A program made the position numbers and the translations under genes. The notes under the pieces are model-generated. The model was given only the letters and a program-made list of their open reading frames with translations. It searched no databases and was not told the origin of the DNA. From positions 124,001-188,000 of the forward strand of contig JAGTJX010000002.1 of assembly GCA_023657465.1 (NCBI GenBank): DNA of 64,000 nucleotides, written 5' to 3'. Source of the DNA: Lysobacteraceae bacterium. Lineage in GTDB: Bacteria > Bdellovibrionota > UBA1018 > JAGTJX01. Below, in pieces: positions 2,498 to 20,225 of this stretch. Each line of letters begins with the position of its first letter. Positions within the stretch are counted from its first letter, which is position 1.

Positions 2498-4021
2498 TTA
2501 TACCCCTAAGTCACAAGGAAAGTTTCCTGTTTTACGAGGCCATTCTTTCGGTAGAGGATTATAGATTTTACCGTTGGAAAAAACTTCTACCTTTTGATCG
2601 AGCTTAGCCCATCGGATGATTGCCAAGCTGCTCTCGGGTACATCATAAAACACCGAGGCAATATGACAAGCGTCGTAATCAAAACGAATAATTGATTGAG
2701 ACTTTAAAGCCTCAGCATTGAGAGATTGATAGAAAGTCGCAGCCCTTGTACCTATAGAGTTCCATGCTTCCCACCATTGATAACCTTGCTTCACTTGAGT
2801 GGGAATACGATAGAGTGAAATCATTACTCCAATAGAGATTGCAGCAATTTCAAAAGCTTTATAATGATTTTTTAAATAATTTTTAGCTGTCATGAATAAG
2901 AATAGAGCAAGTAGTCCTAGTCCTATCATGTAGTGATGCATCGGAAGAATGCGAGCTCGCTCAGGAAAATAAAGAGAAACGAGTTGAGTGATTTGGGTGA
3001 GGTATCCCATCCACAGGAACAAGACTGAAAAATAAAGGATTCGTGATTCAGAGCGAACGAGTTTTCCTCTTTTCCTATAAATCCAAATAAATAAGCCTAT
3101 AGTCAGAGCGACCAAAATATAGAGAAAGGGTCTAGCCAAGTTTCCATGCCATGCCATTGGAAGGGTCATTAGCTTACCTAAAGTATGAGTAGATTCGAAG
3201 ACCCACCAGAAGAGATGAAGAGTGGTTTTACCGCTCGGATCAAGCGTTTTCATTCGTGCGGTTTGTCCTGGTGCAAGAAGTACTGTAACTAACGAAGAAC
3301 CAACAATTAATAAAGTAATGACAGCATGTTTTAAGAACTGTTTCCAAGAAATTCGACCAGCAAAATAATTAAACAAAGTGATTCCTGGTAGCAATATACT
3401 CATCGTAAATACAAGCTGTTCGTGAATAACGGATATGTACCAACAGAATAGTGTCAATGCCAGTGAGTTCAGAATTGTTAAAGAAGGAATTTTCTCACGG
3501 CTGATCCATAAAAATACAAGTGAAGTTAAGAATATAGGGGTGCAATAATTAGAGTGAATAATGGCCAAGCTCATTCCTTCTGAAATGGGAACAGAAAGAG
3601 CTAAAAAAACAAAACCAAATAGATAAATCAAATAAACAGGTAAAGATGTTACGACTCCACTCATACGTAGAATCCCGTGAGTGAAATTACCAAAGGAAAG
3701 CGAAACGACTACTCCACCTAAAAGACGAAGTGTGAACCAGGGAAAATTAAACGGAGTAAATCCAATCCCATGAGTGATCCAATTCATGAAGACCAGATTA
3801 ATAGTCTCTCCTAATCGACCACACCTCAGCATGTAGTAGTCAACGATGCGATCAAATAATTGAGAAGCCGGTAGTGGGCTTAAGAAGTGGGGGTCGTCTT
3901 GCCAGCCCATTCCTTCAGACGGAAAAATGAATTTAAGACTTACAAAATAGATCGCAACAAGTGAGTAGAAAAACCAAATAGGCTTAATCCGTTTTATCCA
4001 CATAAAGCCACACCCTAGCAT
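2498..4021 (-). CDS. Polytopic membrane protein of the polysaccharide locus, function unknown
   Basis: A 507-residue protein with roughly ten hydrophobic segments (for example the stretches beginning FFYSLVAIYFVSL and YILVALTIGLFIW) and a soluble C-terminal tail of about 80 residues. An acidic patch (GMGWQDDPHF, near residue 40) follows the first membrane helix, an arrangement seen in GT-C glycosyltransferases and some DUF6056-like proteins, but no family-defining motif was secure. The start could also be the ATG at 4003. The gene is AT-rich compared with wecB and lies alone on the minus strand between plus-strand sugar genes. A role in moving or assembling glycan is inferred from context only. 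Confidence 0.7.
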   Translation of the reverse strand: MLGCGFMWIKRIKPIWFFYSLVAIYFVSLKFIFPSEGMGWQDDPHFLSPLPASQLFDRIVDYYMLRCGRLGETINLVFMNWITHGIGFTPFNFPWFTLRLLGGVVVSLSFGNFTHGILRMSGVVTSLPVYLIYLFGFVFLALSVPISEGMSLAIIHSNYCTPIFLTSLVFLWISREKIPSLTILNSLALTLFCWYISVIHEQLVFTMSILLPGITLFNYFAGRISWKQFLKHAVITLLIVGSSLVTVLLAPGQTARMKTLDPSGKTTLHLFWWVFESTHTLGKLMTLPMAWHGNLARPFLYILVALTIGLFIWIYRKRGKLVRSESRILYFSVLFLWMGYLTQITQLVSLYFPERARILPMHHYMIGLGLLALFLFMTAKNYLKNHYKAFEIAAISIGVMISLYRIPTQVKQGYQWWEAWNSIGTRAATFYQSLNAEALKSQSIIRFDYDACHIASVFYDVPESSLAIIRWAKLDQKVEVFSNGKIYNPLPKEWPRKTGNFPCDLGV

Positions 4022-7198: not shown

Positions 7199-9109
7199 AT
7201 GTGTGGAATCGCAGGCATCGTCAGTATAGATCGTACACTCTCAAAATACGAACTCAGTTCTCGCATCGAGAGGATGACAACAGCGATTCGATATCGAGGT
7301 CCGGATCATGAGCAGTTCTATGTGGATGAGAGTGTGGGACTTGCATTTGGGCATAGGCGACTAGCGATCATCGATCTCTCTCCCTCTGGCAATCAGCCCA
7401 AGGAATCCAACTGTGGAAGGTTCATTACGGTTTATAACGGCGAAATTTATAATTACCGAGAGCTGAGAGCTGAACTAGAGAAGAAGGGACATCAGTTCCG
7501 TGGAGCGAGTGACACTGAAGTGATGCTCACTGGGTTCACTGAGTGGGGTATCGCGCGAACATTACCAAAGCTCTTAGGCATGTTCGCTATTGCGGTTTGG
7601 GATCGCAAGGAGAAAAGGCTCACTCTCGTGCGCGATCGTGTAGGGAAGAAGCCTCTCTATTATGGATGGGTGGGACGCGAGCTTGTGTTTGCCTCTGAGT
7701 TGAAGGCGATACGTGCTTTGCCGAATTACTTTGGTGAAATCAATCAGTCGGCTCTGGGATCTTTCCTTCATTACTCTTATGTTCCTTCACCTCTCACTAT
7801 TGACCAAGGCATTCATCAGCTCAATCCAGGTTCATTCATTGAGTATGATTTTAATGTTTCTAAAGTGTATCACCCTGAATCTCAAGAGTATTGGTCGATG
7901 AGTGAAGCACAGAGAGTTGGGGGATCAGACCCCTTCATGGGCTCAGAGAAGGAAGCCATTGATCAACTGGATTTCCTGCTCACGGATGCCACCGACAAAC
8001 GAATGCTATCTGACGTACCACTCGGAGCGTTTCTCTCAGGTGGGATCGACTCCTCACTGATTGTCTCACTCATGCAAAAGTTAAGCTCCAAGCCTATTCG
8101 TACGTTCACGATTGGATATGATGATCCTTCATTCAATGAGTCGCATCATGCAAAGGCTGTTGCTGATCATTTGGGTACACAGCACACAGAGCTTGTCGCT
8201 ACAGAAAAAGACGCAATGGGTTTTGTCGAGAGTCTGGGACAGATTTATGATGAACCCTTCTCTGATGCATCTCAAATTCCTATGCTGCTTGTATCAAAAC
8301 TCACTCGTCAACATGTGACCGTCGCTCTCTCAGGAGATGGTGGGGATGAGTTCTTCGGAGGGTATGATCGTTACCGAACCACTCAGAAACTAGAAATGGT
8401 TCCGTCACTCGCTGCTCCGCTCGTATCAGGTGCAGCAGGACTCATGTTTGAAACTCTGAATAAGATCACTCACCAAGAGAAGTACTTGAGAGCTTCCAGG
8501 ATCATCAAAAACTTCGATTCAGAATCTGTTTATTATCACTACTGTGCCAATTGGAATGTGCCCGAAAATCTCATTCCTGGTTTCGGATCTTCGGATGCAA
8601 TCACTCAGTGGACTGCTGGACTTAATCCTAAATCTCGCGGGTTACTCAGTGGTATCTTCTATTGGGACGCGCGAAGGTATCTCACCGACGACGGATTAGT
8701 AAAAGTAGATCGCGCAAGTATGCGCAATGCTCTAGAAATCAGAGCGCCACTCCTCGATCATCGTGTGATTGAGTTTGCATGGAGATTACCTATTGAGATG
8801 AAGCTAGGTCGGAATCACGGGAAACATATTCTTCGTGAGCTTCTCTACCGAAATGTACCCAGAGAATTGGTTGATCGTCCTAAACAAGGGTTTGGTCTTC
8901 CACTTGCGAAGTGGCTCTCTGGAGGTTTAAAGTCTTGGAGTGAAGACCTCATGACTGAAGAGTGTCTGAAGAAAAGCGGACAGCTCGACGTGAAGCTTGC
9001 GCGTGGAGTTTGGAATGAGTTTCAGTCAGGCAGGAAAAACCTGCTCAACACTGTTTGGGCTATGCTGATGTTTCAATCTTGGTATTTTGCTAGGGAGAAG
9101 GCTTCATGA
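7199..9109 (+). CDS. asnB: Asparagine synthase (glutamine-hydrolysing)-like amidotransferase
   Basis: A 636-residue two-domain enzyme. The N-terminal class II glutaminase starts MCGIAGIVS with the nucleophile Cys2 and contains YNGEIYNYRELR. The ATP-pyrophosphatase synthetase domain has the PP-loop FLSGGIDSSL near residue 277, then LSGDGGDEFFGGYDRY and the C-terminal RAPLLDHRVIEFA. In polysaccharide loci such proteins often amidate uronic acids (WbpS-like) rather than make free asparagine. That reading is favoured here by the epimerase directly upstream but is not proved. Its stop overlaps the next start as ATGA. Confidence 0.92.
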   Translation: MCGIAGIVSIDRTLSKYELSSRIERMTTAIRYRGPDHEQFYVDESVGLAFGHRRLAIIDLSPSGNQPKESNCGRFITVYNGEIYNYRELRAELEKKGHQFRGASDTEVMLTGFTEWGIARTLPKLLGMFAIAVWDRKEKRLTLVRDRVGKKPLYYGWVGRELVFASELKAIRALPNYFGEINQSALGSFLHYSYVPSPLTIDQGIHQLNPGSFIEYDFNVSKVYHPESQEYWSMSEAQRVGGSDPFMGSEKEAIDQLDFLLTDATDKRMLSDVPLGAFLSGGIDSSLIVSLMQKLSSKPIRTFTIGYDDPSFNESHHAKAVADHLGTQHTELVATEKDAMGFVESLGQIYDEPFSDASQIPMLLVSKLTRQHVTVALSGDGGDEFFGGYDRYRTTQKLEMVPSLAAPLVSGAAGLMFETLNKITHQEKYLRASRIIKNFDSESVYYHYCANWNVPENLIPGFGSSDAITQWTAGLNPKSRGLLSGIFYWDARRYLTDDGLVKVDRASMRNALEIRAPLLDHRVIEFAWRLPIEMKLGRNHGKHILRELLYRNVPRELVDRPKQGFGLPLAKWLSGGLKSWSEDLMTEECLKKSGQLDVKLARGVWNEFQSGRKNLLNTVWAMLMFQSWYFAREKAS

Positions 9110-10158
9110 AAATATTAGTAGCAGGAGACTGGCACTCAGATATTCACGAAAAACCACTCTCCGATGCATTTATAAAACTCGGCCACGAAGTGAGGCCGTT
9201 TTCTTGGCATGAGAGATACGACGCTAAGACTGATCTTCAGAAGTGGATGGCCAGAGCTGAATCTAAGTTCTTGATCGGCCCTAGAATCCATCAAGTGAAT
9301 GATGATCTCTTTGATGAGGTGAAGAAGTTCCGTCCCGATATTCTATTTGCTTATCGTGGAACTCATATTCTGCCAGACACACTAGATAAGATTCACAAGG
9401 AGTCTCCTAGCACCTACTTAATTGGATATAATAACGATAATCCCTTTTCAGAGAAGGGCACGCAGTTTGGTTGGAGGCATTTCATCGCTTCAATCCCTAA
9501 GTACGATCTCAACTTGGCTTATCGCCATGAAAACATGCAAGACTTCGCTGGAGCTGGAGCGAAACGTGTAGAATTGCTCCGGAGTTGGTTTATTCCGGAG
9601 AGAAATCGTCCTGTGGAGTTGTCAGCTGCTGACAAACAGAAATACAGCTGTGATGTCGCATTCATTGGTCACTTTGAGGCTGACGGACGAGAACAGTACC
9701 TGGCTGAAATCGTAAATCGAAAGTTTGATTTTAGATTATTTGGTCCCGAGTGGAATAGGGTGATCGACGAAGTCCCAGAGCTGAAGAAATTCAATCCTGT
9801 TTCTTCTCCAAGAGCAGAGGAATATAATAAGGCTATTAATGGTGCACGAGTTGGACTTTGTTTTTTGTCTAAACTCAATCATGATACTTATACCAGGCGT
9901 TGTTTTGAGATCCCCGCAACTCGTAGACTGCTTCTCTCAGAGTTTTCAGAAGACTTAAATTCTATGTTTAAAGAAGGTGTTGAGGCGGATTATTTTAGAA
10001 GCAAAGATGAGTTGATTGATAAGTTAGACTTCTATATTAAGAATCCAGCAATAAGAGAGCGTGTCGCCCAAGCAGGTTATGACAAGGTTTTTCTCGCTGG
10101 TCATGATGTAACAAGTAGAGCTAAACAAATTATTAACTGGTATCAAGAAAAATGGTGA
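9106..10158 (+). CDS. CgeB-like glycosyltransferase family protein
   Basis: A 350-residue GT-B-like protein beginning KILVAGDWHSDIHEKPL. Features shared with CgeB-type proteins are the DILFAYRGTHI segment, YNNDNPF near residue 110, CDVAFIGHFEADGRE near 185 and a C-terminal part with YTRRCFEIPAT and LDFYIKNPAIRERVA. The donor and acceptor are unknown; transfer to a lipid-linked glycan is inferred from the locus. It overlaps asnB by four bases (ATGA) and is followed five bases later by the fucosyltransferase. Confidence 0.78.
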   Translation: MKILVAGDWHSDIHEKPLSDAFIKLGHEVRPFSWHERYDAKTDLQKWMARAESKFLIGPRIHQVNDDLFDEVKKFRPDILFAYRGTHILPDTLDKIHKESPSTYLIGYNNDNPFSEKGTQFGWRHFIASIPKYDLNLAYRHENMQDFAGAGAKRVELLRSWFIPERNRPVELSAADKQKYSCDVAFIGHFEADGREQYLAEIVNRKFDFRLFGPEWNRVIDEVPELKKFNPVSSPRAEEYNKAINGARVGLCFLSKLNHDTYTRRCFEIPATRRLLLSEFSEDLNSMFKEGVEADYFRSKDELIDKLDFYIKNPAIRERVAQAGYDKVFLAGHDVTSRAKQIINWYQEKW

Positions 10159-10162
10159 CACT

Positions 10163-11140
10163 TTGAAACATGTTATTATTCGTCTTGCTGGCGGACTTGG
10201 AAATCAGATGTTCCAATATGCAGCGGGTTTAGCTTTAGCTCGTAAGCTTGGAGTTTCGTTAAAGGTTGATCTTTGCTATTTTGATTTTACACCTAAGTTT
10301 GTCTATTCTCTCAGTTGTTTTGTTGGTACCCCGAAAGATTTAAATGATTTTGCTACATTCAAAGAAGTGAGATCATATTCTGGAGTTTTTCTTAGGTTTG
10401 TTAACTCGCTTAATTGGTATTATAAACTATTTCATAAATATTATTATATGTGGCCAAAGTTGAGACCATTTTTTACTATAGGAAATTCTGTCTATCGTGA
10501 AAAACAGTTTAATTTTGATCCTCAATATTTCGAGCAATCTACGCCTAAGCTAGTCATTGGATACTTTCAGTCCGAACGATATTTTAGTGAGATCATTCCG
10601 GAGATTCGAAAGACATTCGAGTTGCCACTCAGCATATTGAATGAGGAAAATAAAAAGCTCTTTGATTCTATAAAGAGTGAAGACTCTGTATCGATACATA
10701 TTCGTCGTGGAGATTATGTATCAGATGGGGCTGCAAACCAACTACACGGAGTTTGTGATTTGAGTTATTTTTATGAAGCTGTTCGGTTAATTCAAAGAAA
10801 AAGAAATGGAAAAGCGCTTTCACTTTATGTGTTTTCAAACTCTCCAGAATGGGCCAAGGAAAACTGGAACCTGGATGGTTTTAAAGTTCATTTTGTAACC
10901 GGAAATTACTCTGGAAGTTATGATGGAATTCGTGATTCTATAGACTTGTTATTGATGTCGAGTTGCAAAGATCATGTGATTGCAAATAGTAGTTTTAGTT
11001 GGTGGGCGGCGTGGTTGAATAATCGTGAAGATAAGTTAGTGGTTGCACCTCAAGCATGGTTTAAGGACACTCAGTATAATGATGTAGATATCATCCCCTC
11101 TCATTGGATAAGGTTAGGGGATCGTTCCTTGTTGAGATAA
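10163..11140 (+). CDS. Alpha-1,2-fucosyltransferase (GT11)
   Basis: It transfers fucose from GDP-fucose to a galactose-like acceptor. The 325-residue protein starts with a TTG codon giving KHVIIRLAGGLGNQMFQYAAG, the GT11 N-terminal motif. The GDP-fucose-binding motif HIRRGDYV lies near residue 178, and ANSSFSWWAAWL near residue 275 is the third conserved motif. No ATG is available in frame near the N-terminus, so TTG is needed. The gene is visibly more AT-rich than its neighbours (whole 60-base lines with few G or C), which suggests later acquisition. Confidence 0.93.
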   Translation: MKHVIIRLAGGLGNQMFQYAAGLALARKLGVSLKVDLCYFDFTPKFVYSLSCFVGTPKDLNDFATFKEVRSYSGVFLRFVNSLNWYYKLFHKYYYMWPKLRPFFTIGNSVYREKQFNFDPQYFEQSTPKLVIGYFQSERYFSEIIPEIRKTFELPLSILNEENKKLFDSIKSEDSVSIHIRRGDYVSDGAANQLHGVCDLSYFYEAVRLIQRKRNGKALSLYVFSNSPEWAKENWNLDGFKVHFVTGNYSGSYDGIRDSIDLLLMSSCKDHVIANSSFSWWAAWLNNREDKLVVAPQAWFKDTQYNDVDIIPSHWIRLGDRSLLR

Positions 11141-11192
11141 AATAGCAGTCAATGCCGCTATGCGTTTTTGTCCATAAATCATCACAGACACA

Positions 11193-12641
11193 ATGTTTTG
11201 TGATACAAAAAAAAAGATGTCCCAGTCGACTCTAAGTAATTCAAATTTGCAAAATCGCTCTATGCCCATCTCACGTAAAATCTCTCGAGTCTTAAGCGAA
11301 CTCTTACTCTCAAAAGACTTACGCTTCTATTTTGTTTCAGATTTCGCAGTGAGCTTCATGGCTTTCTCGCTAGTAGCCGGATGGAATCCTCGTGTGTGGA
11401 TGCAGACTTCGGCTGAGATATGGATTTCGTCGCTTGTATTCTCACTGAGCTTCACTGGCATTGCTCTAGGTACGGGCTTGTTTGAACGTGAACATCGCTT
11501 CTACGCTAAATCTTTCATTCGTTCGATTGCAATTTCATGTGTACTTGCATTGATCTCAACACTGTTTGTGATTTACTTTGCTCTCTTCTGGAAAATCGGT
11601 CGATTCCTTCTCGTATTCGGAAGCATTGGTGCGCTAGTTGGCGTGCTTCTCTATCACTGGGTACTCTCGTTAGTGCTGAATAAGTATCCTTATCGTTTCG
11701 TGGTCATTGGGGAAGCATCTCCCATCACTCAGGGACTTCGTGGTCTAGGAAAGCGCGCGAAGAAATGGATGAACTACTTACATCTCAACGAGCTTCAGGA
11801 GTGGTTCTTCGCGAACAAAAACCTGAGTGCGGATCAGTTGGCACATAAAATCCAAGAATCTCGCGTAATCGATGTAGTGATGACCGATCAAGCGGCTAAG
11901 GACCCACGTGCCACAGAGTTTGCGATCGCAGCGATGCAGGTGGGTTGCAGGGTCATTGACGAAGTCGGTTTCTACAGCGAGATTCATGAAGCTTTTCCAT
12001 CTCAGATTCTCTCTCAGAATTGGTTCGTGTTTGCAGGAATTGATACGAGACAGAACTGGAGCAACTTCTTCAAACGGATTTTTGATCTCTCGTTTGCTTC
12101 CGTATGTTTGGTAGTGCTTTCACCATTACTCCTTATTCTTGCTTTTATTGTCATGGTCTCAAGCCCAGGCCCTGTGCTCTTCATTCAAGAGCGTCAGGGT
12201 AGGTATCGTAAGCCGTTTAAGATATTAAAATTCCGTACGATGAAGCTTGATGTGAATGGATCTGAGAATCCGCCATCGACTCGCGCCAATGATCCACGTG
12301 TGACTTGGATTGGTCGACTCATGAGACCACTTCACTTGGATGAGCTTCCTCAGATCTGGAATATTCTTAGAGGTGAGATGTCGTTTGTAGGACCTAGACC
12401 TGAGGTCTATTCTTTCACTCAAGAGATTATTCGTGAGGTGCCTATCTATGAATTCCGTTGTTTAGTGCGTCCGGGACTGACAGGGCTCTCGCAGATTCGT
12501 GTGGGATACACACTCGATAACGTCGAGGCCACGTTCACGAAGCTCGCGTATGATCTCTACTACGTGAAGAATCATAGCTTCGTGATGGATATTTTGATTA
12601 TTTTACGGACGGCGTTTGTGCTGACGAAGAAGGTTCACTAA
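11193..12641 (+). CDS. Initiating polyprenyl-phosphate sugar-1-phosphate transferase
   Basis: A 482-residue membrane enzyme of the bacterial sugar transferase family (WbaP/WcaJ type). It loads the first sugar phosphate onto undecaprenyl phosphate. The N-terminal half has four hydrophobic segments and a CoA-binding-like domain. The C-terminal 190 residues form the catalytic part: KRIFDLSFASVCLVVLSPLL, PGPVLFIQERQGR, FKILKFRTMK, then LHLDELPQIWNILRGEMSFVGPRPE. Start codons at 11193, 11217 and 11262 are all possible; none has a strong ribosome site. It ends exactly where the convergent hipA gene ends. Confidence 0.93.
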   Translation: MFCDTKKKMSQSTLSNSNLQNRSMPISRKISRVLSELLLSKDLRFYFVSDFAVSFMAFSLVAGWNPRVWMQTSAEIWISSLVFSLSFTGIALGTGLFEREHRFYAKSFIRSIAISCVLALISTLFVIYFALFWKIGRFLLVFGSIGALVGVLLYHWVLSLVLNKYPYRFVVIGEASPITQGLRGLGKRAKKWMNYLHLNELQEWFFANKNLSADQLAHKIQESRVIDVVMTDQAAKDPRATEFAIAAMQVGCRVIDEVGFYSEIHEAFPSQILSQNWFVFAGIDTRQNWSNFFKRIFDLSFASVCLVVLSPLLLILAFIVMVSSPGPVLFIQERQGRYRKPFKILKFRTMKLDVNGSENPPSTRANDPRVTWIGRLMRPLHLDELPQIWNILRGEMSFVGPRPEVYSFTQEIIREVPIYEFRCLVRPGLTGLSQIRVGYTLDNVEATFTKLAYDLYYVKNHSFVMDILIILRTAFVLTKKVH

Positions 12642-13919
12642 CTAGGTCTCTAGCAGTTTTACTCGCTTCAGCATCATTTTAAAAATGGGTTCACTGACTT
12701 TCTTTGGAAAACCTTTTGGAAGTTTTCTAATACTAGATTCAATCACTTGAGAAGTCTGATGAGTGACTTCTGATATGATATTTTCCATTCCACTAAATTT
12801 ATATTTTTTTGCTGTTTGAAGCCAGTGACGAGTCTGAATCTCTTTGATTTTATAATATCTTTTATCTCCAACGGCCATTGCTAGTTTGAGTTTTTCTTCG
12901 GGTAGAGTCTGCGCATTCACGTGAGGGTCTGCTGACATCACGTCATAAAGTGGCGTCATCGTAAACCCATGGGGCTGAATGAAGGCACTGAAGTTCTTGG
13001 CGTGGCTGTCGATTGCGGCAATGATCCAGAAGATCAGCTGGGTTTTCATAAAATCAGTTCGATCACGATCTCGATCATTCGATTCATTGAGTAATGAGAG
13101 AATAGAACCTATTCCAGGTCCGCCGTCAGTCTCATACTTTTTCTCAGGACCCACTCCTAATGCCTGACAGAGATCTTCTTGGGGAATACGTAATAATTTT
13201 TTACCTGACCACTCTCTATCGAATCTTTTGATGCTGAGAGCGCGGGTGTCTTTGAAGTCAATGATTTCTGTATCAGCTACATTCAGCCCATAAGCTCTTA
13301 GGATTTCTAAGCAGAGCCATTCATTCTCGACAGAAAGAGAAAAATCAGGCCCATCTGGGATTTTCCCAATTGCAGGTTTTAAGATGTGTGTGGTGGGTGT
13401 TACTCCTCCGGGGAGCATCCATCGTCCCTCATGATAAAGAAGAGCAGTTTTGTTTTGAGCTCCTGCTAGTGAGATCCTGAAGTCGGGTTGGTTACCGATT
13501 CCCAATGGATTAAGTCTTAGGTTTTGAATAAGTTTCGCTATTTGAGTGTCACTTATAGGAGTACCGTAAGCTGCTTTTGGTTTCTCATGGTCGTCTGTTT
13601 CAGGATAAAATTGTAAGGCACCAACGCAATCCCGTCCCAGTGCGGATAAAAGATCAAACACTTGTGCGCTTCCTGCTTTTGATTGCGCTGCGAGTTTCTC
13701 TCTGACTCTTAGGTCATCAGGTAAAAGATTGTCAAAATACGTGCGCACTCGTGCATCAGAAAAAGGTTTCTCCTGGAGAGGGAGTTGTCTTGAGATGGGA
13801 ATAGGATATTCACGCTCAAGCCAAGTCGACGCATATTCAAATGAGATTGCTCCATTTGATTTTCTGATGAGTGTTCCAACAGGAATACTATTCATCAGTA
13901 GGGAGAGCTTTTCCGTCAT
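12642..13919 (-). CDS. hipA: HipA-family serine/threonine kinase toxin
   Basis: A 425-residue HipA. Known HipA kinases phosphorylate aminoacyl-tRNA synthetases (GltX in E. coli) and slow growth. The N-terminal couple_hipA domain (1-105) is followed by the kinase: SLAGAQNKTALL with Ser150 (the E. coli autophosphorylation position), ILKP with the ATP-binding Lys181, IKRFDR, the catalytic loop IDSHAKNFS with Asp304 and the metal site LYDVMS with Asp326. All key residues are present, so it should be active. The ATG overlaps the hipB stop (ATGA). Its stop abuts that of the convergent sugar transferase. Confidence 0.94.
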   Translation of the reverse strand: MTEKLSLLMNSIPVGTLIRKSNGAISFEYASTWLEREYPIPISRQLPLQEKPFSDARVRTYFDNLLPDDLRVREKLAAQSKAGSAQVFDLLSALGRDCVGALQFYPETDDHEKPKAAYGTPISDTQIAKLIQNLRLNPLGIGNQPDFRISLAGAQNKTALLYHEGRWMLPGGVTPTTHILKPAIGKIPDGPDFSLSVENEWLCLEILRAYGLNVADTEIIDFKDTRALSIKRFDREWSGKKLLRIPQEDLCQALGVGPEKKYETDGGPGIGSILSLLNESNDRDRDRTDFMKTQLIFWIIAAIDSHAKNFSAFIQPHGFTMTPLYDVMSADPHVNAQTLPEEKLKLAMAVGDKRYYKIKEIQTRHWLQTAKKYKFSGMENIISEVTHQTSQVIESSIRKLPKGFPKKVSEPIFKMMLKRVKLLET

Positions 13920-14197
13920 TCAAACCAACTTTGCGTTGAAGAAGGTTTTTTTGATGACGACGCTCTTTCTCGAAGAACGACTTCAATTCCAAGAGCTGCG
14001 CAAATGGCAAATAAAGTTTCTATTTTTGTGGAGCCAATCCCTTTTTCAATATTTGAGATTGTGGCCTGTCGTGTTCCTGCGCTCTTAGCAAGGAGTGTTT
14101 GGCTGAGGTCGAGTCGTTTACGCGCCCTTTCGATAGCTTGACCCAGTTGATTGGAGGCTCTAATGGAAATCTCAAGAGGTTTAGAGGGCTTCTTCAT
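13916..14197 (-). CDS. hipB: HipB-family antitoxin, HTH transcriptional repressor
   Basis: A 93-residue protein with an XRE-type helix-turn-helix from about residue 17 to 75 (LGQAIERARKRLDLSQTLLA, then TRQATISNIEKG as recognition helix). The C-terminal tail is short and charged. HipB proteins neutralise HipA and repress their own operon. The gene lies upstream of hipA with a four-base overlap. No ribosome site is visible before the ATG at 14197, and the first operator begins 11 bases upstream, so repression would block transcription start directly; the message may be leaderless. Confidence 0.92.
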   Translation of the reverse strand: MKKPSKPLEISIRASNQLGQAIERARKRLDLSQTLLAKSAGTRQATISNIEKGIGSTKIETLFAICAALGIEVVLRERASSSKKPSSTQSWFE

Positions 14198-14207
14198 TTA
14201 GTGATAA

Positions 14208-14225
14208 TATACGCTAGGGCGTATA
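14208..14225. promoter_or_regulatory. hip operator O1
   Basis: A perfect dyad TATACG-N6-CGTATA with centre CTAGGG. It lies in the core of a longer perfect inverted repeat from 14201 to 14232 with 14-base arms (GTGATAATATACGC and its complement) around TAGG. It sits just before the hipB start codon and probably overlaps the -10 region on the minus strand. Binding by HipB is inferred from position and symmetry. Confidence 0.8.
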
Positions 14226-14235
14226 TTATCACTAT

Positions 14236-14253
14236 TATACTCTGTAGCGTATA
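14236..14253. promoter_or_regulatory. hip operator O2
   Basis: A near-perfect copy of the O1 dyad: TATACT-N6-CGTATA, with one mismatched arm position. Its centre is 28 bases from the centre of O1. Confidence 0.72.
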
Positions 14254-14263
14254 TTTTGTTTTT

Positions 14264-14281
14264 TATACGTTTTGGCGTATA
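14264..14281. promoter_or_regulatory. hip operator O3
   Basis: A perfect TATACG-N6-CGTATA dyad, extending to eight-base arms (14262-14283). Its centre is again 28 bases from O2. It ends 16 bases before the stop of the upstream methyltransferase gene, so the whole control region fits in about 100 bases. Confidence 0.77.
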
Positions 14282-14296
14282 AACGTCAGTATGTTG

Positions 14297-15016
14297 TCAA
14301 TACTTCTTCTGCGCAACGATCACTGAATACGTGAAAACATCACGCGGTCCGAAGTAATACTCCAGCACATTGAAACCAGCTTTTTCGAAGATCTCGTAAG
14401 CTTGCTTCTTCGATTGAATGCGCGAGATCTCGTCAGGGTGGAACTTCACGTCCTTCTTGCCTGTGAGAGTGGTGATGATGACTTTCAATACCTTGAAGAA
14501 CATCACGCTGAGTCCGAATTCGGGTGGCCAGAGGATCACGAGTTTGCCTGAGTTTTTCACCACGCGTCTGAACTCTGCCAAGATCTTCTCGATCTCTTCC
14601 ATCGTGAAATGTTCCATCACGCCTAGGTTATGGATTCCATCTACGGAGTCATTGGCGAGAGGGATTTGGAAAATGCTACCGTGCAGGCTCTTGGCCTTGC
14701 CCTTGGCTTCAAAATCAAAAACTTTCAGAGCATTGACTGAAATATCGAGTCCCGTGATGTTCACGTAATCTCGAATGTCTTGATCCACTTGACCACTTCC
14801 GCAACCAGCGTGAAGGACTTGATCTCCTGGCTTCATGTACTTCTTGATGAAGTGATTGAGCGATGGGCGGATGATGAACTTGCGATAGAACTCAGCAATC
14901 ACATCATAGAGCATGCTGCCTTTTTGTTTCTTCTCGCCCCAGTAAGCATCCCAGCCCTGGTTATCGATGAGTCCGTTTTGTGAAGGTGTTTTGTTTGTCA
15001 TATCTTTTTTATCCAT
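14297..15016 (-). CDS. Class I SAM-dependent methyltransferase
   Basis: A 239-residue methyltransferase. VLHAGCGSGQVDQDI near residue 67 is the SAM-binding motif I, GLDISVNAL gives the acidic loop, and SVDGIHNLGVMEHF matches the motif seen in Methyltransf_11 enzymes. The C-terminal part is moderately hydrophobic (LSVMFFKVLKVIITTL), as in some membrane-associated glycan methyltransferases. The stop of the preceding glycosyltransferase and this start share one base (TAATG), so translation is coupled. The substrate is likely a sugar or lipid-linked glycan, from context. Confidence 0.82.
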   Translation of the reverse strand: MDKKDMTNKTPSQNGLIDNQGWDAYWGEKKQKGSMLYDVIAEFYRKFIIRPSLNHFIKKYMKPGDQVLHAGCGSGQVDQDIRDYVNITGLDISVNALKVFDFEAKGKAKSLHGSIFQIPLANDSVDGIHNLGVMEHFTMEEIEKILAEFRRVVKNSGKLVILWPPEFGLSVMFFKVLKVIITTLTGKKDVKFHPDEISRIQSKKQAYEIFEKAGFNVLEYYFGPRDVFTYSVIVAQKKY

Positions 15017-15774
15017 TAGGTTTTGTTCGTGAGCGCGTGACCTGCTCGGTATTCGGTTTTGATTTTCCTTCTGAATAAGAAAATCGTGAATAAAGTCTTA
15101 ATGCTCTTCAGTGCTTCGAAGTAGCTCATCTTCGATGAACCATAAGTACGAGGCGGGAGCGAGATTGGAACTTCATTAATGCGGTACTTGCCCACATTCA
15201 GCAGATGAAGGCTCTCGAAGAAAAACGCATATCCATTGGACTGCACTTCTGAGAAAAATCCTCTGTGGATTCGGTCGAGTTTGTAGAGACGGAACGCCCC
15301 TGTGGAGTCGTACTTCAGTCCCAAGAGGAACGTAGTTAAGAAGTGCGCAGTCCATGTCAGGAACTTACGCATGGAGTTCCAGCCATCGAGACTATTCTTC
15401 TCCATATAACGTGAGCCCACGACGACATCGAAGTTCTGATTGTTTTGAAAAAGCTCTGGTATTCTGTGAGGCGGATGAGTGAAGTCTGCATCCATGGTGA
15501 CTAGAGTCTTGTATCCATGATCGAACGCCCATTGAATGCCGTCTTTGTGCGCGCCGCCGATGCCGTTGCGATTCATTTTGTGAATCACATGGAGGTGAGG
15601 GCGGGTGAGTTTGAGTTCATCTAAGATACGTCCAGTGCCATCAGGTGAATTGTCATCGAGAACGAGGATGTCATAAGCATCTGGCATTTTCACTTTTTCG
15701 ATTTCCTGGAGAAGCAGAGTGATGTTCTGTGCTTCGTTCAGAGTAGGCGTGAAAATCAGAAATTTGTCAGTCAA
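15016..15774 (-). CDS. Family 2 glycosyltransferase, dolichol-phosphate mannose synthase-like
   Basis: A 252-residue GT2 protein. FLIFTPTLNEAQNI, VLDDNSPDGTG near residue 40, TMDADFTHPP near 92 and VGSRYM near 117 are the DPM1-like donor and metal motifs, and LPPRTYGSSKMS near 205 is the acceptor-side segment. No C-terminal membrane anchors are present. The start is TTG at 15774, as no ATG occurs before residue 30. It overlaps the upstream dehydratase-like gene by eight bases. It probably makes polyprenyl-phosphate-linked sugar for the locus. Confidence 0.87.
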   Translation of the reverse strand: MTDKFLIFTPTLNEAQNITLLLQEIEKVKMPDAYDILVLDDNSPDGTGRILDELKLTRPHLHVIHKMNRNGIGGAHKDGIQWAFDHGYKTLVTMDADFTHPPHRIPELFQNNQNFDVVVGSRYMEKNSLDGWNSMRKFLTWTAHFLTTFLLGLKYDSTGAFRLYKLDRIHRGFFSEVQSNGYAFFFESLHLLNVGKYRINEVPISLPPRTYGSSKMSYFEALKSIKTLFTIFLFRRKIKTEYRAGHALTNKT

Positions 15775-16666
15775 TTGAAACCCCTTCGGCCATGATCATG
15801 TCCCTAATCATTGTTTTAAAATCGTACTGAGGCACCCACTTCGTCTGCATCTTGAGCTTAGATGAATTCCCGACCAAGGTGTGTTTGGCTCTTTGTATTA
15901 AATCTTTATCAAGCTCAACATGGTCTTTCCAGTCTAAATTCAGGAGCCCAAACGTAGTCTGTACAAAATCCCTAACAGTATGCCCAATACCGCTAGAAAT
16001 GACAAAGTCCTGAGGCTCTTTGCATTGCAAGATGAGTTGAAACGCTCTCACGAAATCACGTGCGTCACTCCAGTCTACTGTGGAATCGAGATCGCCTAGT
16101 TTAAGCTTCTCTTGTGAGCCGTTTTTGATGCGGGTTGCGGCAAGTACGACTTTGCGAGAGAGGAACTGGGGTTTTCGATATCGTGACTCATGATTATAGA
16201 GAATCCCGCTTGAGGCGTAGACGCCCTTCGTCTCTCTGTACTTCTTGCAGAGAAGCATCCCTTGTTGCTTCGTGATTCCATAAGCTGTGTCTGGAGCAAG
16301 TGGCGTGGATTCACTCTGAGAGGTCGATGCGGGCTTACCAAACACCATGGAAGAAGAAGCGTAAAACAGTCTCGCTTTGTGTCCAGCCTTCAGAATCCCT
16401 TCTAAACAGTGCCCGAGTCCCGTGACATGAACCTCAGTGCTCTTACGGAGGAGCTCTGCTTCATCAGGGATCTGGTCTTGTGAAGTGTGGTGATAAGCTG
16501 CGAGATAGTAGATCTCGTCGATTCCAGTGAAACTCAGTTTCGATAAATCGTCTTTTTTAGTGACGGGGACAACTTGGTAATTCAATGGCTGGAGATGCTC
16601 TGTGAGAAGCACTCCGTCTTGACCCGCGCTGCCTACGATCATTGCGCGCTTATTCTGAGAGCTCAT
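15767..16666 (-). CDS. NAD-dependent dehydratase/epimerase related to GDP-mannose 4,6-dehydratase
   Basis: A 299-residue extended SDR. MIVGSAGQDGVLLTEHL resembles the Gmd N-terminus, SSSMVFG and the catalytic YGITKQQGMLL follow, and LYNHESRYRKPQFLSRKV and the DWSDARDFVRAF segment are Gmd-like. It is about 50 residues shorter than true Gmd and more divergent, so it may be a 4-reductase or dehydratase acting on another GDP-sugar. The start ATG follows the upstream methyltransferase stop with no gap. Confidence 0.82.
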   Translation of the reverse strand: MSSQNKRAMIVGSAGQDGVLLTEHLQPLNYQVVPVTKKDDLSKLSFTGIDEIYYLAAYHHTSQDQIPDEAELLRKSTEVHVTGLGHCLEGILKAGHKARLFYASSSMVFGKPASTSQSESTPLAPDTAYGITKQQGMLLCKKYRETKGVYASSGILYNHESRYRKPQFLSRKVVLAATRIKNGSQEKLKLGDLDSTVDWSDARDFVRAFQLILQCKEPQDFVISSGIGHTVRDFVQTTFGLLNLDWKDHVELDKDLIQRAKHTLVGNSSKLKMQTKWVPQYDFKTMIRDMIMAEGVSID

Positions 16667-17905
16667 TTATGAAGAAACGATTTCTAATTCTGGAAGAGGG
16701 AATACCATCTTGCCACCTTGGTTCATGTACTCTTTTTCACGACCCAAGATGCCCTTCTTGAAGTGCCAAGGTAGGACAACCATGTAATCAGGTTTCATCG
16801 CTTTGACTTCCTTCTCAGAGAGAATAGGGATAAGAGTTCCTGGAGTGAACGATCCAAACTTGTCTTCGTTCACTTCCGCTATCGCAACAAAATCAGAAGG
16901 GGAAATGCCGTAGTACTGAAGGAGAACGTTACCCTTGGTGGATGCTCCATAACCAAAAACTTTTTTGCCTGAGAGTTTAGCCTCGGCGAGGAAAGTTATG
17001 AGTTTGCTCTTCTGATCATTCATGCGATCAATAAAAGCTTTATAGGTGTCGAGGTTGAAAAGTCCTTCGGTCTTCTCCTGCTGAAGAATTGTGGTAACAA
17101 TCGGCGCTTCTGTAGGATGGAGAGAATTCTTCTTCGTGGCAGTGATGCAGAAGCTTCCGCCGTTCACATCGTTGAACTCGACATCCAAGATCACCATGTT
17201 CACAGCATCTAGAATCCATTTGATTTGTTTCAATCCGTAATACTCTAAGTGCTCATGGCAGATCGTATCGAATGAATTGGTCTTGAGCATCGCGCCTACA
17301 TAGCTCTGTTCAAACATCCACACGCCATCAGTGTCGAGTGCGTCTGCGATCTGCTGAGCAAATGCGATCGGGTCTTCGAGATCGTAGAACATGGCAATGG
17401 AGGTGAGCGCTTTCACCATTTTTCCTGGATAGGATTTTTTAATTGCAGCAGCAGAGAAAAACTCTGGAACGAGTTTGATGTAATCAGGATAGTAGTTCTT
17501 GAACTTCACTCCTGAAGGGTCAATTCCTAAGAAGAGTAAGTCTTGTCTCTCGTATGATCTCAAGAGAGTAGAGTCGTTACTTCCAATATCAACGACCATA
17601 TCTCCCGGAGAGAGCTTCACAAATTTTTGGATTTTCTGTGTGCGAGTTTTCAAGTGAGCAACCATCGATTGGTTGAGACCTGAGCGGTACCCATAATTCA
17701 TTCCGTACATTTGATTGAGATCGAAGTTGTGAGCGAGTTGAACGAGATCGCAGTTTTTGCATTTAACTAATGTCAGTTCGCCGGTAGGTACTTGCTGAGA
17801 TTTTGTTTTGGGGAAGATACCAGTGAAGGCCTGATCTCCTAATTCAACAATGGTATCAAATTTCTGGGTCTGACAAATTCTGCAGTGAGTAATTTTTTTT
17901 GACAT
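16667..17905 (-). CDS. Sugar C-methyltransferase (zinc-binding N-terminal, class I SAM)
   Basis: A 412-residue protein with the three-part layout of NDP-hexose C-methyltransferases (TylCIII-like): an N-terminal zinc site (CRICQTQKF and CKNCDLVQ), a SAM domain with VVDIGSNDSTLL near residue 88 and MFEQSYVGAM near 195, the HEHLEYYGLKQI motif near 218, and a C-terminal domain with GYGASTKGNVLLQYYGI near 320. Such enzymes add a methyl branch at C3 of a keto-deoxysugar. It heads a leftward run with the dehydratase-like gene, which could supply a keto-sugar substrate. Confidence 0.9.
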   Translation of the reverse strand: MSKKITHCRICQTQKFDTIVELGDQAFTGIFPKTKSQQVPTGELTLVKCKNCDLVQLAHNFDLNQMYGMNYGYRSGLNQSMVAHLKTRTQKIQKFVKLSPGDMVVDIGSNDSTLLRSYERQDLLFLGIDPSGVKFKNYYPDYIKLVPEFFSAAAIKKSYPGKMVKALTSIAMFYDLEDPIAFAQQIADALDTDGVWMFEQSYVGAMLKTNSFDTICHEHLEYYGLKQIKWILDAVNMVILDVEFNDVNGGSFCITATKKNSLHPTEAPIVTTILQQEKTEGLFNLDTYKAFIDRMNDQKSKLITFLAEAKLSGKKVFGYGASTKGNVLLQYYGISPSDFVAIAEVNEDKFGSFTPGTLIPILSEKEVKAMKPDYMVVLPWHFKKGILGREKEYMNQGGKMVFPLPELEIVSS

Positions 17906-17976
17906 TGTCCTAAGAATCTCTTCTAAGTGATTTTCTTAGTCAATTAAAAACACCATGCGTTAGCGGCTTAAATGCG

Positions 17977-19257
17977 TTACAAATTAAAGCGTTTAGCACG
18001 ATATTCACACATGAGTTTCCCTGGAATATCGACACCCCAGTAATCATCGTGTTCAGGGCTCACCTTGATGTGAATGGGCTTATCGCAGGGTATCGGTTTG
18101 ACTGTTGATTCCCTCAGCTGTCCAATCCACGTTAGCCCACCCGTTCGTTTAATCTCAAAAAGATAGAGATTATGGATGAATACAAATGCGAGTAACCAAT
18201 TGAAAGTTTTCTGACTAAACCTACCAGAGAGTCGTGTGAGTTGACTCAAGGTGAAGATCAGTGCGATTTGAGACATGTTCATGCTGTATCGATTGTAATG
18301 CCAATACCAATAACTGCGATCACGTGCGTAAAGACTAAACGCAACTTTCCTCACAATCCAAGAAAGTGCCACGGTGGCTAAAAACGCAAGCGGTACGATG
18401 TAGATGAGTCGTTCCTGAGCGGTCTTGGTTTTGAAAAAAGCTCTTGAGTAGAGTGTAATGACTAGAACGCTGAACAGCCAAAATAGAGGTTCGTAGTACG
18501 CAATGTACTGAGTCGTGTGAGTTCCAAAGAGAGGAGCAAAGAGGAAATGATTCATGACGGTGTAATAAATTCTCTCCATGAAGGTGTTCAAGAGAATGAT
18601 GTGGTCTTTGAAATGTCTCTCGTCTCGATAAATGATGTTGATGATTCCAATACAAATCAGTCCAATAGTAATCGCAGATTCTTTCCAAGATTCACGAGTA
18701 GTCGACTTACGTTGTAACCAGGCTCTCAGTGCAAAAAGAGGAGCAAACATGAGACTCTCGCCAGCAGAGAAACCAAAAAGAATTGCGATGATGATGTGAA
18801 CGGGCTTCGTCTCACGGTCTAATCGTCTCATTGCGAGTAATCCCAAGCCAAAACTAAAATACCAATGGAGATTGCAGAGGTTGCCGAGGCACTCACCAAT
18901 ACCTGCAACTACACAAAGAGTTCCAGCAATGAAAAATCTGTTTTTGGCTTTGGTTATGATGTGTTCAAAATCATCGTGAACAAAGTAAGCAATCACTGCA
19001 GATGCGCAGAGAATATAAGTCTCAAAATAAAAATGAGCTAGCGCCTCAAGAGGTACATAAGTTCCAATGATTGCAATGAATCTTTGGATGATCGTTTGAT
19101 ATCCTGCAATGGGAAGTAAAAGACTGCCCCAACCTAATTCAAAAGCAGATCTAGCGTAATCATTCGCATCCTCTGCCCAAAGGTTTAAGTGCATGAGTCG
19201 GTCATACGCCCTCACGTTGAACAAGAGTACGCAGAGAATGAACGCACGTAAGATCAT
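17977..19257 (-). CDS. Polytopic membrane protein, unknown function
   Basis: About 426 residues with around ten hydrophobic segments and a C-terminal soluble tail with HIKVSPEHDDYWG. The ATG at 19257 makes an ATGA overlap with galE and is preferred over the ATG at 19278, which would overlap more. An acidic motif after the first helix (LNLWAEDANDYARSAF, near residue 25) and the overall shape resemble GT-C-type glycosyltransferases, but no family was recognised with certainty. It follows galE in a coupled pair, so a role in glycan assembly is likely. Confidence 0.72.
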   Translation of the reverse strand: MILRAFILCVLLFNVRAYDRLMHLNLWAEDANDYARSAFELGWGSLLLPIAGYQTIIQRFIAIIGTYVPLEALAHFYFETYILCASAVIAYFVHDDFEHIITKAKNRFFIAGTLCVVAGIGECLGNLCNLHWYFSFGLGLLAMRRLDRETKPVHIIIAILFGFSAGESLMFAPLFALRAWLQRKSTTRESWKESAITIGLICIGIINIIYRDERHFKDHIILLNTFMERIYYTVMNHFLFAPLFGTHTTQYIAYYEPLFWLFSVLVITLYSRAFFKTKTAQERLIYIVPLAFLATVALSWIVRKVAFSLYARDRSYWYWHYNRYSMNMSQIALIFTLSQLTRLSGRFSQKTFNWLLAFVFIHNLYLFEIKRTGGLTWIGQLRESTVKPIPCDKPIHIKVSPEHDDYWGVDIPGKLMCEYRAKRFNL

Positions 19258-20225
19258 AGTTTTTGGATCCACTTCCAAGCATCTCGGATGATGTGATCAA
19301 TAGAAGAGTGCTGAAGTTTCCATCCCAGCTCCCTCTTGGCTAGGCTCGCATCGGCAACAAGTACAGGTGGATCTCCTGCACGGCGAGGGGAGTGTTTCAC
19401 TTTGAGTTTCTTGCCCGAGACTTTTTCAGCGGCTTTGATGATTTCTAGAACACTTGTTCCTGTCTCAGTCCCGAGATTAAACGCATGCACTCCAGGTTTT
19501 TTCTCCAGGTACTTGAGCGCAAGCACATGCGCCTCTGCTAAATCCATCACGTGAATGTAATCACGGATGCAGCTTCCGTCTGCTGTCGGATAATCGGTGC
19601 CCAAGACTTCGATCTCTGCTCTCTTGCCCAGAGCAGTCTGAAGCGTGAGTGGAATGAGGTGAGTCTCAGGATGGTGATTCTCACCGATCTCTCCTTCAGG
19701 ATCTGCTCCTGCGGCGTTGAAATATCTCAGAGAGACACTCTCTAGTCCGTAAGCCGTGTGAGCATCCCGCAAGATCTGCTCGACCATGAGTTTGGTCTGG
19801 CCGTAAGGATTGATCGGATGTTGAGGAGTGGATTCGGTAATCGGAATGATCTTGGGTTCACCGTAAGTCGCGCAGGTACTTGAAAAAACGAGCTTCGAGC
19901 ACTTCGCTGATTTCATCGCCTTCAAAAGATTGAGAGTGCCAAGGACATTGTTCTCGTAATACTTCACTGGCTCGCGCACAGACTCTCCGACGTAAGCATA
20001 AGCTGCGAAGTGTAGCACGCTCTCAGGTTCAAACTGATTGAGAGCATCGGTGAGTGCTTCTAAATTGAGTAAGTCGATCTTCTCAAGATCTCCCCATTTC
20101 ACGGCTTCAGCGTGACCGTGTACAAGATTGTCGATGACTAAGATCTCATGGCCATCATGGGCTAATCTCTTGACAGCGTGAGAGCCAACATATCCTGCTC
20201 CACCTGTAACAATGATTTTTGCCAT
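19254..20225 (-). CDS. galE: UDP-glucose 4-epimerase
   Basis: It interconverts UDP-glucose and UDP-galactose. The 323-residue protein has VTGGAGYVGSHA at the N-terminus, FAAYAYVGESV, SSTCATYGEP and the catalytic YGQTKLMVEQ near residue 145, RYFNAAGADPEGEIGE near 175 and DGSCIRDYIHVMDLA near 215, all diagnostic of GalE. The stop overlaps the start of the next membrane gene as ATGA. It closes the polysaccharide region and can supply galactose for the alpha-1,2-fucosyltransferase acceptor. Confidence 0.96.
   Translation of the reverse strand: MAKIIVTGGAGYVGSHAVKRLAHDGHEILVIDNLVHGHAEAVKWGDLEKIDLLNLEALTDALNQFEPESVLHFAAYAYVGESVREPVKYYENNVLGTLNLLKAMKSAKCSKLVFSSTCATYGEPKIIPITESTPQHPINPYGQTKLMVEQILRDAHTAYGLESVSLRYFNAAGADPEGEIGENHHPETHLIPLTLQTALGKRAEIEVLGTDYPTADGSCIRDYIHVMDLAEAHVLALKYLEKKPGVHAFNLGTETGTSVLEIIKAAEKVSGKKLKVKHSPRRAGDPPVLVADASLAKRELGWKLQHSSIDHIIRDAWKWIQKL

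Follow-up and report, generated by a model that had tools for sequence, protein, structure and literature searches.

Three evenly spaced dyads upstream of a chromosomal hipBA operon as probable HipB operators, and an inter-operator gap shared among hipBA control regions

We analyzed a 64,000-nucleotide stretch of a Lysobacteraceae bacterium genome (GenBank assembly GCA_023657465.1, contig JAGTJX010000002.1, positions 124,001 to 188,000; hereafter the window), in which three palindromic dyads stand in an even row upstream of hipB, the antitoxin gene of a hipBA operon. Judged from their sequence, the dyads are almost certainly HipB operators. It is very probable that they are the autoregulatory operators of this chromosomal hipBA, cooperatively filled by touching complexes and repressing its promoter. 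The dyads, their spacing, the operon, and their conservation in relatives are direct observations; HipB binding, cooperativity, bridging, and repression at the window operators are what we infer. From a survey of further hipBA loci, we also favor, with some reserve, a family-wide rule: operators would be separated by edge-to-edge gaps of 9-10 base pairs (bp) across phyla, usually in arrays of three or four dyads, with half-sites that vary with HipB helix residues, and selection would constrain a bridged nucleoprotein chain more strictly than it constrains the individual sites.

The dyads (O1 to O3; Table 1) are each 18 bp long and have the form TATACG-N6-CGTATA, which can be rewritten as TATAC-N8-GTATA. 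The original prediction had described this arrangement, including the altered middle copy and the 28-base intervals, and its coordinates are confirmed here. Start-to-start spacings are 28 and 28, inter-dyad gaps are 10 bp, and 10 nucleotides lie between O1 and the hipB ATG. Across the whole 2,832,305-base genome, O1 to O3 are the sole matches to TATACG-N6-CGTATA with at most one mismatch, and they are also the only exact TATAC-N8-GTATA sites. With at most two mismatches to the longer form, the window holds four matches vs 0.67 expected. A search for a HipB regulon elsewhere in the genome, using TATAC-N8-GTATA with at most one mismatch, gave no excess (25 sites vs 35 for the reversed control). 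A lone one-mismatch match to this looser dyad lies at G000:C1:51489-51506 (L086; TATACGCTAAGCGTTATA), and such sites are within the number expected by chance.

Table 1. Features of the hipBA control region and operon in the window (positions are those of the window)
Feature	Coordinates	Strand	Details
Operator O1, nearest hipB	14208-14225	.	TATACGCTAGGGCGTATA; center 14216.5
Operator O2	14236-14253	.	TATACTCTGTAGCGTATA; center 14244.5; single base changed, half-site position 6
Operator O3, most distant from hipB	14264-14281	.	TATACGTTTTGGCGTATA; center 14272.5
Perfect inverted repeat enclosing O1	14199-14234	.	Arms 14199-14214 and 14219-14234; 16 + 16 paired bases, 4-base loop
Candidate promoter	14204-14232	-	-35 GTGATA (14232-14227), 17-bp spacer, -10 TATTAT (14209-14204); consensus scan only
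hipB, antitoxin and repressor, 93 amino acids	13916-14197	-	Xre/Cro-type helix-turn-helix, RQATIS recognition helix; Pfam HTH_3 1.8e-13
hipA, Ser/Thr kinase toxin, 425 amino acids, full length	12642-13919	-	Pfam Couple_hipA and HipA_C domains

The reading of these dyads as hip operators, already part of the original prediction, is borne out by what they precede and by their conservation. The operon is a true hipBA, with antitoxin and kinase genes in that order and overlapping by 4 bases. The best Protein Data Bank match of HipB is Escherichia coli HipB (2wiu_B, 5.5e-7). HipA is E. coli-like, including the N-domain; it matches E. coli HipA structures over residues 4-413 (about 1e-93) and keeps the equivalents of the catalytic residues S150, K181, D309, and D332. 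The toxin is therefore probably active. Among close homologs, which the prediction had proposed to compare, two members of the same order, L009 and L010 (HipA 64% and 61% identical to that of the window), share both the consensus and the spacing: TATACG dyads stand at 28 and 28 before hipBA, and their O1 occupies an equivalent position just ahead of the hipB ATG.

The -10 of the candidate promoter (Table 1) overlaps the edge of O1 that faces hipB and lies six bases ahead of the ATG. The same placement relative to O1 scores better in L009 (TGGACA-17-TATACT), and in many loci the best sigma-70-like -35 falls in an inter-operator gap, with the -10 on an operator edge or in the next gap. If the predicted promoter is right, hipB messages would be nearly leaderless and O1 would lie over the -10. 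In the mechanism that we propose, a HipB dimer, alone or as HipA2HipB2, would occupy each 18-bp dyad, and the 10-bp gaps would fix the register of neighboring complexes so that they touch and fill the promoter cooperatively. The contact between neighbors would most likely be HipA-HipA, as in E. coli, where HipB, with HipA as co-repressor, represses the operon cooperatively (PMC3376134; PMC3920265); by analogy, cooperative, bridged binding at the window array is plausible. Because O1 lies over the likely -10 and the O1-O2 gap over the likely -35, occupied operators would block RNA polymerase. Degradation of HipB would lift repression, and HipB would then be made anew.

The survey covered 52 hipBA loci: the window, E. 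coli, two public genome contigs, 30 loci from the order and phylum, and 18 plasmid or phage records. HipB was located in them by profile search, and the best pair of similar 18-bp dyads upstream was taken at any spacing from 18 to 60. In 45 loci this pair scored above almost every shuffle; 27 of them gave a spacing of 27, eight gave 28, and six gave twice this interval (54-56). Of 42 loci scanned for a third dyad with its position unconstrained, 30 placed it at 27 or 28 bp from the closer of the other two and five more at 54 bp. These pair and third-dyad scans were unbiased, and the script that extended the arrays, which usually come to three or four dyads, favored spacings near 27, 32, and 39.

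The quantity conserved across these loci is the gap. When dyad length was left free, four loci (L013, L015, L037, and L053) were found to have dyads of 17 bp, mostly 26 bp apart, that keep the 9-10 bp gap. With dyads of 17 or 18 bp allowed, 37 of the 52 loci have neighboring dyads 9 or 10 bp apart edge to edge, and most others have a doubled spacing; a gap of this size was best in 20 of 208 shuffled control regions. Misfits to the rule are L011, whose HipA is distant, and L038, with AT-rich repeats, and the arrays of L006, L014, L027, and L036 are weak.

Some loci have features of their own. Upstream of hipB in L020, a palindrome recurs every 14 bp, giving two interleaved 28-bp registers in which the inter-operator gaps are themselves palindromic. 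One longer interval occurs in L013 (37 bp) and one in E. coli MG1655 (L004, 39 bp), each equal to the usual interval plus 11, or about one helical turn. In L045, from a Photobacterium plasmid, a reverse transcriptase family gene (2966-3928) adjoins hipBA.

The sequence of the half-sites is looser than their spacing, and part of its drift follows the HipB recognition helix. The consensus over 298 half-sites is T-A-T-A-C-(G/C/T), with A at position 2 in 98%, C at position 5 in 85%, and A or C at position 4 in 74% and 15%; of the six positions, the weakest across the family is position 6. The first residue of the HipB recognition helix (Arg43 in the window, Lys38 in E. coli) is Arg in 26 loci, and position 4 is A in all of them. 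It is Lys in seven loci; position 4 is C in five of these, and L041 becomes a sixth with a better dyad set, as the TACAGC dyads of its automatic array were replaced by three TATCC dyads. This association arose in 0 of 300 permutations, a figure that still includes the relatedness of the loci. Judged from these sequences, Arg goes with TATAC and Lys mostly with TATCC, which gives a first residue-to-base rule for HipB. The original prediction had seen a distinct recognition code in the window dyads. What stands of that claim is the change from C to A at position 4 and the preference at position 6, together with the Lys-to-Arg change in HipB, and nothing beyond these; one helix residue may explain most of the difference.

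The gap rule does not extend to all HipA-like kinases. Among 28 loci of divergent HipA_C kinases from the same order, including L011, 27 or 28 is the best spacing in one (L070). Since these kinases and Legionella hipBST are without such spacing, the gap rule goes with the HipA clade of E. coli and the window. The 27-bp and 28-bp states form clusters on a HipA tree yet have switched several times (11 changes over all labels vs a shuffled mean of 19.7), so evolution tolerates a gain or loss of one base; the "none" group on this tree is too large because labels were set before 17-bp dyads were recognized. We also considered whether loss of HipA G22 is tied to loss of the array. The G22S substitution of HipA7 is thought to disturb HipA dimerization within such complexes (PMC7029023), and the one clade with Q, K, or N at this position (L012-L015, L018, and L020) looked weak. 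The idea was dropped because L013 and L015 of that clade carry 17-bp dyads mostly at 26-27 bp.

Other explanations of the even row have to be weighed. It is possible, though we judge it unlikely, that the dyads are operators whose spacing has to do only with DNA bending or with contact between HipBs, HipA forming no bridge. E. coli HipB does bind the hip operators cooperatively, with the complex bending the operator by about 70 degrees (PMC3376134; PMC3920265), and a conserved edge gap of 9-10 bp would also suit contact between HipB dimers. However, Legionella HipBST, which is without the fused HipA N-domain, has 53-bp gaps (PMC10653801), and the divergent HipA_C kinases of the order are without the 9-10 bp gap. 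Both hint at a link between the gap and full-length HipA, but the HipBs differ as well. The conserved gap suggests selection for contact between neighbors, which either HipA or HipB may make. It is very improbable, in our view, that the dyads are bound independently and owe their equal spacing to past tandem duplication of a 28-bp unit. Tandem duplication can produce direct repeats of constant spacing, and three to four copies are common, but the 10-bp spacers of the window array are unlike one another, and the 27/28 spacing is kept at loci with differing half-sites (TATTCC, TACATC, TAACC, TACACG, and ATTACG). A spacing that outlives the half-site sequence points to selection on geometry.

We give even less credence to the inverted repeat at O1 acting mainly as an RNA hairpin, either an attenuator or a shield of the hipB start codon, with the other dyads of minor importance. 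O1 does lie inside a perfect 32-base inverted repeat, as originally described, and the arms lengthen the 18-bp dyad by nine paired bases per side. As RNA in a read-through transcript, the repeat is predicted to form a strong hairpin (-21.9 kcal/mol, z -8.5) that ends one base before the ATG. Yet L009 is without the extended arms and keeps all three dyads, O2 and O3 have no such arms, and the message would start after the hairpin if the predicted promoter is right. Cooperatively filled operators thus remain our preferred reading of the array, with some points that weigh against it. The window promoter match is weak (9/12) and leaves the most important operator for repression uncertain. The model of HipA-HipA bridging leans on E. 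coli work known via secondary sources. The survey loci are related by ancestry and so are not 52 independent cases.

Altogether, in the light of the survey, no other feature of hipBA control regions seems as well conserved as the gap between operators. The rule predicts that a half-turn change of the gap should break repression even with perfect operators, and it offers a simple means to find HipB operators in unstudied genomes. The literature searched, outside which lie key structural papers, does not mention a gap of 9-10 bp as a rule for the family, and priority is uncertain.

The window HipA is the sole HipA_C protein found in its genome. A close HipA occurs in three of 55 genomes of the order, the window's included, and a fourth match, L011, is distant (34%). 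No hipBA relatives were found among viral contigs, and a search of phages for such relatives gave two records only. Based on translated reading frames, hipBA stands amid genes of surface-polysaccharide type at 7199-20225 of the window, including asparagine synthase-like, glycosyltransferase, and sugar epimerase genes.

Among known systems, the window array is most readily compared with O1-O4 of E. coli K-12 hipBA. In both, hipB precedes hipA and has in front of it 18-bp dyads that fit TAT.C-N8-G.ATA, four of the five bases of the half-site being the same. A 28-bp center-to-center spacing is common to both, and the recognition-helix segment QATISN of HipB is identical. The differences are A rather than C at position 4 (TATAC in the window, which does not have the exact TATCC half-site), Arg rather than Lys at the first position of the recognition helix, and three operators in one even row (28/28) rather than four in two pairs with a 39-bp middle interval. 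The original prediction had held that the E. coli operators differ in spacing too, and this part of it fails: dyad length is the same, and in MG1655 four perfect dyads start at 2965, 2993, 3032, and 3060 of L004, that is, at intervals of 28, 39, and 28. The window array thus repeats the 28-bp interval of E. coli. An extra perfect TATCC-N8-GGATA lies in MG1655 downstream of hipA, between ydeT and yneL (L004:555-572, about 1590054).

In Legionella pneumophila hipBST, an Xre-type antitoxin gene is likewise preceded by three evenly spaced operators, each an 18-nucleotide inverted repeat. This system differs in its motif, its 53-bp gaps, and a toxin split into HipS and HipT (PMC10653801), where the window has 10-bp gaps and one full-length HipA. 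For Caulobacter crescentus, which unlike the window organism is an alphaproteobacterium, the hipBA1 and hipBA2 promoters have already been reported to hold inverted repeats whose intervals would suit complexes like those of E. coli (PMC7029023). The window operators add one more hipBA promoter to this known type, and the gap rule is the more interesting result.
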